DNA of 55,360 nucleotides from assembly GCA_902806095.1 (NCBI GenBank), contig CADCVF010000076.1:1-55360 (forward strand), in the 5' to 3' direction. The position numbers were made by a program, and so were the translations under genes. This DNA comes from an uncultured Rubrobacteraceae bacterium (GTDB taxonomy: Bacteria; Actinomycetota; Rubrobacteria; Rubrobacterales; Rubrobacteraceae). Within the stretch, counting starts at the first letter, position 1; the number at the start of each line of letters is the position of its first letter. Of this stretch, positions 7,915 to 31,983 are shown piece after piece. The notes beneath the pieces were generated by a model. The model was not told the DNA's origin, did no database searches, and saw nothing but the letters and a program-made list of their open reading frames with translations.

Positions 7915-8841
7915 TTGACGGAGGAGAGAGGAGCGGTGTCCGGCATGGACCCTGCCGAGCTCTGGCGCCAGTGGATGGAGTCGGGGAGCAGGATGTGGTC
8001 TGAGATGGACCAAAGGGGCCAGGTCGATCCCTATGGCGCATACCGCCGGTGGTTCGAAGGCATGCGAGAGATGCAAGAGCGGATGATCGGGGCCGTCCCC
8101 GAGCCTGTCGCCGGCACCATGGGGGTCAATGACCTCTGGCAGAGGTGGTTCGAGATGACCACGGACTCCTGGCAGAAGAGCGCCGAGATGGGCCAGAATG
8201 CGATGGAGATCCTGCCGCGTTGGATGCAGATGCTCGATGAGGCGCGTACCAACCTGGTAGCTGGGGGCGCTCCACCGGGCGATCCCTTGCAGTTCGCGGC
8301 CCAGTGGTACAACGCCACGAGCGGCCCCTTCTCGGACTTTGTCGGGGACGTCATAGAGCGCGAGGAGTTCCTCGAGCCTTCGAGCCGCTTCCTCCAGAGC
8401 TATGCCAGCTTCTACAAAGTGTTCAAGCGCAACTCCGAGGACTACCTCAAGAACCTCCAGCTCCCCGTCCGCTCCGACATATCCAGGATCGCCGGCCTCG
8501 TCGTCAACCTGGAGGAGAAGGTAGATCGCATCGAGGATGTTCTCGAAGACTTCGAGTACGGTTACGCCGAGCCTGCCACGAGTGAGTCCGTCAAGGAGCT
8601 CGAGACGCGGCTCGGGCGGGTCGAGGGCAAGCTCGACCGGTTGCTCGCGGCGCTGGAGGACGGTTCCCAGGGCGGCGGCGCGCAGGTGGCCGAGACCAAC
8701 GGGTCTGGCGACGAGATCAGGGCCACAGATGGTGCGAGGCGCAAGGCGCGTGAGATGGACGTAGAACTGTCTGAGGTAGTCGGGACCGGGGCCGACGGCC
8801 AGGTCACCGTCGAGGACGTGCGCAAGAAGGGAGAGAGCTAG
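7915..8841 (+). CDS. phaE: Class III PHA synthase subunit PhaE with C-terminal E3-binding-like domain
   Basis: PhaE is the non-catalytic partner of class III PhaC at the granule surface. Residues 1-210 carry PhaE features: repeated Trp-rich helices (LWQRWFEMTTDSW), a FLEPSSRFLQ region and the coiled-coil segment NLEEKVDRIEDVLEDF. After a Gly/Ser/Asn linker (about residues 248-270), the last 40 residues read ATDGARRKAREMDVELSEV then VGTGADGQVTVEDV. This is the pattern of the peripheral subunit-binding (E3-binding) domain of 2-oxoacid dehydrogenase E2 proteins, an unusual fusion. I chose the TTG at 7915 because GAGGAGG lies at 7901-7907. phaC starts at the next base after the stop. The domain assignment is by motif and would need a profile search. 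Confidence 0.86.
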   Translation: MTEERGAVSGMDPAELWRQWMESGSRMWSEMDQRGQVDPYGAYRRWFEGMREMQERMIGAVPEPVAGTMGVNDLWQRWFEMTTDSWQKSAEMGQNAMEILPRWMQMLDEARTNLVAGGAPPGDPLQFAAQWYNATSGPFSDFVGDVIEREEFLEPSSRFLQSYASFYKVFKRNSEDYLKNLQLPVRSDISRIAGLVVNLEEKVDRIEDVLEDFEYGYAEPATSESVKELETRLGRVEGKLDRLLAALEDGSQGGGAQVAETNGSGDEIRATDGARRKAREMDVELSEVVGTGADGQVTVEDVRKKGES

Positions 8842-9942
8842 ATGACCGAGACGGCCAACTACGGCGCGGTTCCTACTTCGGGTGACGCCGCAATACCCGC
8901 TGACGTAGAGAACTTCTTCGACAAGTACAGCCGGGGGATGAAGATCGTCGTCGAGGGCGCCCAGGCCGACACGGGCCAGACTCCCAAGGAGACGGTCTGG
9001 ACCAAGAACAAGGCGAAGCTCTACCACTACGCCCCCAACGCCGAGAAGAAGCATCCCATCCCCATCCTCATGGTCTACGCCCTCATCAACCGCCCCTACA
9101 TCCTCGACCTCATGCCAGGCAACAGCTTTATCGAGTACCTGGTCGGGGAGGGATTCGACGTTTACATGCTCGACTGGGGCATCCCGGGCGACGAGGACAA
9201 GGACCTCACCTTCGAGAACTACGTCCTCGACTACCTGCCGAGGGCGGTCAAGAAGGTCCTCAGGCACTCGCACTCGGACGAGTTCACCCTGCTCGGCTAC
9301 TGCATGGGCGGCACGATGAGCGCCATGTACGCCTCTCTGTTCCCCGAGCACCTCAAGAACCTCATCCTCATGACCGCCCCTATGGAGTTCCCTGAGGGCG
9401 AGATGGGCCTCTACAGCCTGTTTACGAGCGAGAAGTACATGAACCCAGGGCTCCTCGCCGACGCCTTCGGCAACATCCCGGGCGACCTCATCGACACGGG
9501 CAACAGGATGCTCAAGCCCGTAACCAACTACGTCGGCACCTACGTCAATATGTGGGAACGCATCTTCGAGGAGAAGCCGATGGAGACGTGGCTCGCGATG
9601 AACAAGTGGGTCAATGACGGGCCTCCCTTCCCTGGCGCGACGTTCAGGCAGTGGATCACCGAGTTCTACCAGCAGAACAAGCTCGCCAAAGGCGAGATAG
9701 TCCTACGTGGCCGCCGCGTCGACCTCTCGAACATAGAGGTCCCACTCCTAAACATCGCCGGCAAGAGGGACCATATCTGCACCCTCCCGCAGGCAGAGGC
9801 CACTATGAACCTCATCGGCAGTGAGGACAAGGAGTTCTTCGTCCTCGACGCCGGCCACGTCGGCCTCATGACGGGCCGCGGTGCCAAAAAGGGACTCTGG
9901 CCCAAGGTCAGCGACTGGCTTGGCACCCGCTCGGGCGGGTAG
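8842..9942 (+). CDS. phaC: Class III PHA synthase catalytic subunit PhaC
   Basis: PhaC polymerises (R)-3-hydroxyacyl-CoA on the granule surface. The lipase-like box is GYCMGG with the catalytic cysteine at residue 154, and the remaining triad residues are probably D310 in GKRDHI and H339 in DAGHVGL. The length of 366 residues is typical of class III, compared with about 590 for class I. Its start abuts the phaE stop, as expected for an obligate pair. The stop codon lies inside the left arm of a hairpin at 9935-9971. Confidence 0.93.
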   Translation: MTETANYGAVPTSGDAAIPADVENFFDKYSRGMKIVVEGAQADTGQTPKETVWTKNKAKLYHYAPNAEKKHPIPILMVYALINRPYILDLMPGNSFIEYLVGEGFDVYMLDWGIPGDEDKDLTFENYVLDYLPRAVKKVLRHSHSDEFTLLGYCMGGTMSAMYASLFPEHLKNLILMTAPMEFPEGEMGLYSLFTSEKYMNPGLLADAFGNIPGDLIDTGNRMLKPVTNYVGTYVNMWERIFEEKPMETWLAMNKWVNDGPPFPGATFRQWITEFYQQNKLAKGEIVLRGRRVDLSNIEVPLLNIAGKRDHICTLPQAEATMNLIGSEDKEFFVLDAGHVGLMTGRGAKKGLWPKVSDWLGTRSGG

Positions 9943-20419: not shown

Positions 20420-21064
20420 ATGAGCGACCCAGCAAGAGCCCGAGACCTGAACGAGGCGGCCACACGCTTCGCCCAGACCCTGGCCGACTCCTACAGGCTC
20501 GTCTACACTCAAGCCGCCGAGTCTGGGCAGCGCCAGCAGCAACGTGCCAGGGAGTTCTCCGAGCTCGTGGCCACCAACCTCAGGGAGCAGACCGAGGCGA
20601 GCCGCACTGGCGCCGAGCGGCTCTCCAAGCAGGCACAGATGCAGCGGGAGGCCGGGGAAGAGTTGGCCAGGGAGTCGGTTGAGGCCTACGCCGAGTTCCT
20701 GGACGAGGCCTTCTCCCGCTACCGCTCCGGCACCGAGCGGGCCGCACAGACCGTCCAGGAGGGGACGATAGCCACCGGGAGGACCGCGACCGGGCTGCTG
20801 GGAGCGGCGACCGGCGCGGTGGCCGACGCCACGGGTCGCGCCGTGGATGCTACGGCCTCGGGGGCCGAGCGGGCAGCCGAAGCCGCGACCTTCCCCATAG
20901 AGGGCTACGACCAGATGAACGTGGAGGAGATCTCCGGACGCCTGGATGGCCTTTCGGTGGAGGAGTTGCAGATGGTTCGCGACTACGAGGAACTCCACGA
21001 GCGGCGCAAGACGCTGCTGGAGCGGATGGACAGCAAGATAAGAAACGCCGCCTCCGCCTCTTAA
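20420..21064 (+). CDS. Phasin-like granule-associated protein with extra C-terminal helical domain
   Basis: Residues 1-105 align by eye with the two small phasin-like proteins at 31196 and 31663: an EAATRFAQTLADSY start, an LREQTEASR middle, QREAGEELARESVEAYAEFL and a final FSRYR. Phasins coat PHA granules. Residues about 112-165 are a Gly/Ala/Thr-rich amphipathic stretch (TGLLGAATGAVADATGRAVD) and residues 170-214 form a charged helical hairpin (LSVEELQMVRDYEELHERRK). The ATG at 20420 follows GAGAAGGAG; the frame is open further upstream but lacks a site. It is unlinked to the main PHA locus, and a pyrophosphatase gene follows 192 bases later. Confidence 0.68.
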   Translation: MSDPARARDLNEAATRFAQTLADSYRLVYTQAAESGQRQQQRAREFSELVATNLREQTEASRTGAERLSKQAQMQREAGEELARESVEAYAEFLDEAFSRYRSGTERAAQTVQEGTIATGRTATGLLGAATGAVADATGRAVDATASGAERAAEAATFPIEGYDQMNVEEISGRLDGLSVEELQMVRDYEELHERRKTLLERMDSKIRNAASAS

Positions 21065-31163: not shown

Positions 31164-31195
31164 CTTCGTACTCTCTCCAAAGTGCCGCTCTCCCG

Positions 31196-31537
31196 TTACT
31201 GGTTGGCCCTCCTCTGTACTTCGTCCAGGTTACCCCTGTAGTAGGCAAACATGGAGTTGAGGAAGTCCATGTAGGCGTCGGCCGATTCCTGGGCAAGCGC
31301 CTGGGAGGCCTCCCGCTGCTTGCGCTGCTGCTCGATCAAATCCTCAGAGAGGCCCCTGTTGTTCTCGGCCTGGGCCCTAAGGCTGTTGATGACGCCGTTG
31401 AAGAATTCTTGCGTTACCTGGGCGTTGAGTTCCTGGGCCGAGACGGAACGATCCGCGATGGACTGGTAGGACTCTTTAAGCGCGTTGGCGAACTTCTCAG
31501 CCGCTTCGTTTACCTGCTCTTGCTGCTTCGTGTCCAC
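31196..31537 (-). CDS. Phasin-like small helical protein
   Basis: A 113-residue, nearly all-helical, Gln/Glu/Ala-rich protein without a signal peptide or membrane segment, as expected for a phasin that coats PHA granules. It shares with the protein at 20420 the pattern EAAEKFANALKESY, an LRAQAENNR middle, QREASQALAQESADAYMDFL and a final FAYYR. The GTG start follows GAGGAAGTGAG. The location between a PadR regulator and a thiolase supports the role. It is flanked by terminator-like hairpins on both sides, suggesting independently tuned transcript levels. Confidence 0.72.
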   Translation of the reverse strand: MDTKQQEQVNEAAEKFANALKESYQSIADRSVSAQELNAQVTQEFFNGVINSLRAQAENNRGLSEDLIEQQRKQREASQALAQESADAYMDFLNSMFAYYRGNLDEVQRRANQ

Positions 31538-31605: not shown

Positions 31606-31637
31606 AAAAAAGAGGAGCGAACCCTAGAGCCCGCTCC
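31606..31637 (-). terminator. Intrinsic terminator after the first phasin-like gene
   Basis: On the minus strand GGAGCG (31637-31632) pairs with CGCTCC (31619-31614), followed by TCTTTTTTG. The loop is long at 12 bases, but the T-run is clear. Confidence 0.6.
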
Positions 31638-31662
31638 CAAAACTTCTACCCCGAGCTACGCT

Positions 31663-31983
31663 CTACCTGCTGGCCTCCAGGCCCTCCTTGTAGTAGGTGA
31701 AGGGCGCGCTGGCAAGGTCCATGTAAGCGTCGAGGGACTGCTCGACGAGGGTCCTGTAGGCGTCGCGCTGGTCCTCTGCGCGCTCGAAGAGCTCGCCCAC
31801 AACGCTGCGGTTGCTCTCGGCCTGGTGGCGAAGCTCCCTGATGGTGCCGTCCACCATACCCTGCGCGAACCTGACGTTCCGCTCCTGGAGTCCCACCGTG
31901 TGGTCCACGACCGTCTGGTAGGAATCCCGCGTGGTCTCAGCGAGCCTCTCCATAGCCTTGTTGGCCTTCTCCGTAGTAACCAT
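31663..31983 (-). CDS. Phasin-like small helical protein
   Basis: A 106-residue helical paralogue of the genes at 31196 and 20420, more diverged from them. Shared positions include an ETTRDSYQTVVDHTV start, IRELRHQAESNR, a QRDAYRTLVEQSLDAYMDL block and a final FTYYKEG. It starts at ATG 31983 with AAGGAGATG just upstream, 30 bases after the PadR gene, so the regulator and this gene are probably cotranscribed. Function as a granule coat protein is inferred from paralogy and context. Confidence 0.7.
   Translation of the reverse strand: MVTTEKANKAMERLAETTRDSYQTVVDHTVGLQERNVRFAQGMVDGTIRELRHQAESNRSVVGELFERAEDQRDAYRTLVEQSLDAYMDLASAPFTYYKEGLEASR

Follow-up and report, generated by a model that had tools for sequence, protein, structure and literature searches.

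The PhaE-like second subunit of a class III PHA synthase ends in a peripheral subunit-binding domain (PSBD), and this fusion is kept across the family Rubrobacteraceae. The protein is encoded in the window, the 55,360-nucleotide stretch of DNA analysed here, which comes from an uncultured Rubrobacteraceae bacterium (contig CADCVF010000076.1). In dehydrogenase complexes, PSBDs are known as plugs by which E1 and E3 are held to the core. With a probability of roughly 0.55, the tail of PhaE has been repurposed for docking and brings a partner to the synthase or the granule by means of a re-aimed contact face. The PSBD family itself is well known. Targeted searches, mainly of open-access literature, retrieved no paper linking PhaE to a PSBD, and no description of the domain as the conserved C-terminus of a PHA synthase subunit or as a tail common to many proteins of a single bacterial family.

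The phaE-like gene and its C-terminal domain

The phaE-like gene has two candidate starts, both preceded by a purine-rich stretch, and its stop codon abuts the phaC start directly (Table 1). In the functional sense, its product has the position of a PHA synthase second subunit of the PhaE/PhaR type, directly before a class III PhaC. With class III PhaE (TIGR01834) and class IV PhaR (TIGR02132) it shares this location next to or near PhaC and a weak match in the core. It scored 56.3 bits (E = 4e-15) against TIGR02132, whose cut-off is 148.4, and 18.5 bits against TIGR01834, whose cut-off is 155. Because both values are under the curated cut-offs, the name PhaE is used here as a label by position. 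The same PhaE/PhaR ambiguity is met in a published survey of Rubrobacter, which makes no mention of an E3-binding domain (PMC8146576).

Table 1. Coordinates of the features discussed (positions in the window unless a locus is named).
Feature	Position	Strand	Basis or remark
PhaE-like ORF	7915-8841	+	308 aa from TTG 7915, or 298 aa from ATG 7945
PhaE/PhaR-like helical core	7945..8661	+	TIGR02132 PhaR match, residues 123-255, 56 bits, below cut-off
Flexible Gly/Ser/Asn/Gln linker	8662..8715	+	Low identity, indels, low pLDDT
C-terminal PSBD-fold tail (IRATDGARRKAREMDVELSEVVGTGADGQVTVEDVRKKGES)	8716..8838	+	Pfam E3_binding, AF2, Foldseek, conservation
Tail helix 1, basic (Arg275, Arg276, Lys277, Arg279)	8728..8757	+	DSSP on model, residue table
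Gln296, at a position that is Arg in 42/43 family E2 PSBDs	8800..8802	+	
Last helix and PhaE-specific end D-V-R-K-K-G	8809..8835	+	DSSP on model, residue table
Class III PHA synthase catalytic subunit PhaC	8842-9942	+	TIGR01836 397.7 bits, cut-off 365.3
L20 with PSBD-like tail	L004:1477-2100	-	Also L013, L020, L059, L141, L142, L147, L196, L204

A preliminary description, made from the letters alone, had read the last 40 residues of this protein as a PSBD joined to PhaE by a Gly/Ser/Asn linker, and had proposed a profile search, a structure prediction and a survey of homologues as checks. All three bear out the fusion. Pfam PF02817 (E3_binding) matched residues 274-303 (8734-8823) with 32.3 bits in the whole protein and 36.1 bits in the tail alone, above the gathering cut-off of 23.7 bits. 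The tail alone also found PSBDs of the PDB by phmmer (E = 4e-7), mostly those of E2 proteins, and a profile built from 57 tails reached PDB PSBDs at E = 1.5e-17. The AF2 model of the tail is PSBD-like, with two helices and a turn and loop between them; its mean pLDDT is 85, with values of at least 90 at 39 of 53 residues and 87-96 per block. When the model was searched against the PDB with Foldseek, the top 35 matches were all PSBD-containing chains of E2 or E3-binding protein, including chains bound to E3 or E1 (2eq9, 3rnm, 1w85). No match fell under E = 0.001, in line with the shortness of the chain. The full-length model was poor (mean pLDDT 58), so no conclusion is drawn on the fold of the PhaE core. 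A chance match as the origin of the tail signal is ruled out by profile, fold and conservation.

The tail resembles the PSBDs of E2 proteins (PF02817; 1w4i, 2eq9, 1w85) in its predicted fold, basic helix 1 and flexible linker, and also in the loop G-T/S-G-x-x-G with the Asp that follows it. Unlike them, it forms the C-terminal end of a PHA synthase subunit, with neither a lipoyl nor an acyltransferase domain beside it. Pfam detected no lipoyl domain and no 2-oxoacid dehydrogenase catalytic or core domain in the PhaE-like protein, which is thus neither an E2 nor an E3-binding protein (E3BP). A further parallel is E3BP (protein X) of eukaryotic PDH, in which a PSBD sits on a carrier devoid of acyltransferase activity and recruits a partner, as PhaE may do. 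However, E3BP is an E2 paralogue that belongs to the PDH core and has retained the loop arginine (PMC10156792), whereas PhaE is unrelated to E2.

Conservation of the fusion and hosts of related tails

The linker and the tail have evolved very differently among 27 aligned Rubrobacteraceae PhaE proteins from 12 genera. The linker is hypervariable, with 24% mean pairwise identity, many indels and, in the full-length model, pLDDT < 50 over most of its length. No other region of PhaE is as well conserved as the tail, which has 70% mean pairwise identity. In a whole-protein search, a PhaE homologue was found in 39 of 39 Rubrobacteraceae genomes from 13 genera, and the match reached the tail in the 13th genus as well. 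Since the fusion is kept across 12-13 genera behind a drifting linker, it is under selection for function. A single canonical PhaE, that of G031, has a broken tail: a frameshift or deletion has degraded it, leaving KATTRRRKAK and LTVGDASKRGES as remnants directly ahead of PhaC. In G033 the tail is cut off at the end of the sequence stretch examined. Of the PhaE paralogues, G003:C543 and G031:C220 have no tail, and G013:C71 has one.

As the preliminary description had noted, the PSBD is not part of PhaE as usually described. The TIGR01834 and TIGR02132 models cover only the core of the window's protein, leaving the tail outside, and the match to Priestia megaterium PhaR, whose annotated coordinates give 199 aa, is likewise confined to the core. 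In a phylum-wide sample of 296 genomes, 27 had a PhaE match at E <= 1e-14, all of them Rubrobacteraceae, and none was found at this threshold in the other 269. Within the scope of these family models, the Priestia protein and the sampled genomes of the phylum, a tail general to all PhaE and PhaR proteins is ruled out.

PhaE is not the only protein of the family with such a tail. The window's genome has five E3_binding matches, namely three E2s, PhaE and ribosomal protein L20. Family-wide, a C-terminal PSBD is carried not only by L20 but also by PRC-barrel/DUF2382 proteins, by small helical proteins, by a set of Ala/Gln-rich helical proteins in which it occurs up to four times, and by further hosts. 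The number of E3_binding matches per genome rises to 15, compared with 0-5 in the sampled genomes outside the family. In many Rubrobacteraceae the PSBD-like tail of L20 is acidic and present once or twice; no such L20 was matched in G022, G023 or G025. The near-complete genomes G023 and G025 have just four E3_binding hosts each, three E2s and PhaE, and therefore the PhaE tail is independent of the other hosts. PhaE is the most constant non-E2 host of the PSBD in Rubrobacteraceae, and, because these two genomes hold only E2s and PhaE, the other hosts look like a later spread. Separately, gene clusters were seen in which neighbouring genes, coding for various helical or repeat-rich proteins, each end in or hold PSBD-like domains (L146 in G008, L139 in G019 and L135 in G028).

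Sequence relationships set these tails together. The PhaE tails share 63-65% identity with the tails of other hosts, as against 44-47% with E2 PSBDs, and in a FastTree phylogeny of the 36-residue domains 42 of the 43 local E2s form a group of their own, separate from the tails, with a support of 0.84. In this tree, short and weak as it is, most tails have the Pyrobaculum E2 PSBD 1w4i as their nearest reference. The tail descends most likely from an E2-type PSBD and would have joined PhaE before Rubrobacteraceae radiated, related copies probably being placed later onto other proteins (L20, phasin-like and stress-type proteins).

The contact face and possible partners of the tail

PSBD residues were compared position by position between 27 PhaE tails and 43 local E2s (Geobacillus E2 numbering). 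Part of the face is kept. Helix 1 of the window's tail is basic (Arg275, Arg276, Arg279), as in PSBDs that bind E1 or E3, with Arg or Lys at 135 in 25 of 27 PhaE tails and Arg136 in all 27. Another part is lost. An arginine beside the loop glycine is universally preserved in E2 and E3BP PSBDs in a cross-phylum comparison of animals and fungi (PMC10156792). In our set, Arg at 154 or 156 is present in 42/43 E2s and in 4/27 PhaE tails (absent in 1/43 and 23/27; Fisher p = 2e-13, uncorrected for relatedness), and in the window's protein Asp294 and Gln296 flank the glycine instead. Pro132 occurs in all 43 E2s and in none of the 27 PhaE tails, while position 137 is Lys, Arg or Glu in PhaE tails versus Leu or Tyr in E2s. 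PhaE tails have also gained features of their own in the conserved end DVRKKG, with Arg163 and Gly166 in 27/27 and Lys165 in 96%. As far as can be read from residues, the contact face of PhaE is thus partly kept and partly rebuilt, which makes canonical docking of E3 or E1 less likely.

Such canonical docking is the strongest rival to a re-aimed tail. The tail would then act like the PSBD of an E2, binding E1 or E3 (dihydrolipoamide dehydrogenase) and bringing a 2-oxoacid dehydrogenase component to the PHA granule, much as the preliminary description had supposed. The PSBD fold, the E3- and E1-bound chains among the top structural matches and the basic helix 1 are in its favour, and the genome encodes E3-family proteins as well as three E2s. 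In addition, the loss of the loop arginine does not prove a new partner, since this residue is missing as well from the solved E2 PSBD 1w4i and from one local E2 (L128). However, both this arginine and Pro132 are lost in PhaE tails, no E2 or E3 match was found on the contig carrying phaEC, and similar tails occur on L20 and PRC-barrel/DUF2382 proteins. These hosts are unrelated to acetyl-CoA supply, and therefore the presence of the tail alone does not point to dehydrogenases. Docking of E3 or of a dehydrogenase complex is unsupported in the form first put forward, and we consider E2-like binding rather unlikely.

It is improbable that the tail is a cap for solubility or stability with no specific partner, spread through C-terminal exchange of a small domain. 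The many unrelated host proteins, and the multiple copies in some, would suit a cap, and PSBDs are very small autonomous folds (PMC6270654). Yet the charged, PhaE-specific Arg136, Arg163 and Lys165 are kept in nearly all 27 tails, beyond the expected need of the fold.

The least probable alternative is that the tail binds nucleic acid and links granules to the nucleoid. PhaM and PhaF tie PHA granules to the nucleoid in other bacteria, and helix 1 of the PhaE tail is basic and one host is a ribosomal protein. Even so, this is very unlikely because the tails are neutral to acidic (mean net charge -1.0 in PhaE and -6.5 in L20, where just 1 of 12 keeps the basic residue at 135) and the top 35 structural matches are PSBDs.

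In the re-aimed docking tail that we favour, the PhaE core would bind PhaC or the granule, and the tethered tail would extend to hold a soluble partner there. Because the contact face is altered, a new partner, or E1 or E3 held in a changed way, seems likelier than binding as in E2. The family-wide PSBD on a PHA synthase subunit and the related tails on other proteins suggest that so small a domain can be turned towards new partners. A more speculative extension, which we regard as doubtful, is that the PSBD serves in Rubrobacteraceae as a plug-in tail wiring the PHA synthase, granule-coat, ribosomal and stress proteins to a common hub; storage granules, translation and stress responses would then share one recruitment system. 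For practical purposes, the PhaE tail is a short, conserved and deletable module for asking what PHA granules recruit, and possibly a docking part for engineering heat-tolerant PHA producers.

Phasin-like proteins and a second helical module

PSBD tails were also found on other proteins encoded near the synthase genes. One is a helical protein of G034, its gene lying between that of a class I PhaC and phaEC; another, a different helical protein, is encoded near phaE in G036. Over 106 residues, the G034 protein shares 36% identity with a phasin-like protein of the window (20420-21061, +), whose C-terminal module differs from the PSBD tail of this relative. These neighbours of the pha genes are provisionally called phasin-like, a label that follows location, helical make-up and this pairwise match and not a family model.

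The C-terminal helical module of the phasin-like protein (IEGYD..NV.E...RLD.LS.EELQ.VR.YE) is shared with the class I PhaC of G034 (L134:24-770). It matched no Pfam model, and it was also matched alone at many places in Rubrobacteraceae. Two neighbouring stretches of the window (31175-31531 and 31618-31968, -) are related to the phasin-like protein; the matched ranges contain stop codons, probably at their edges.
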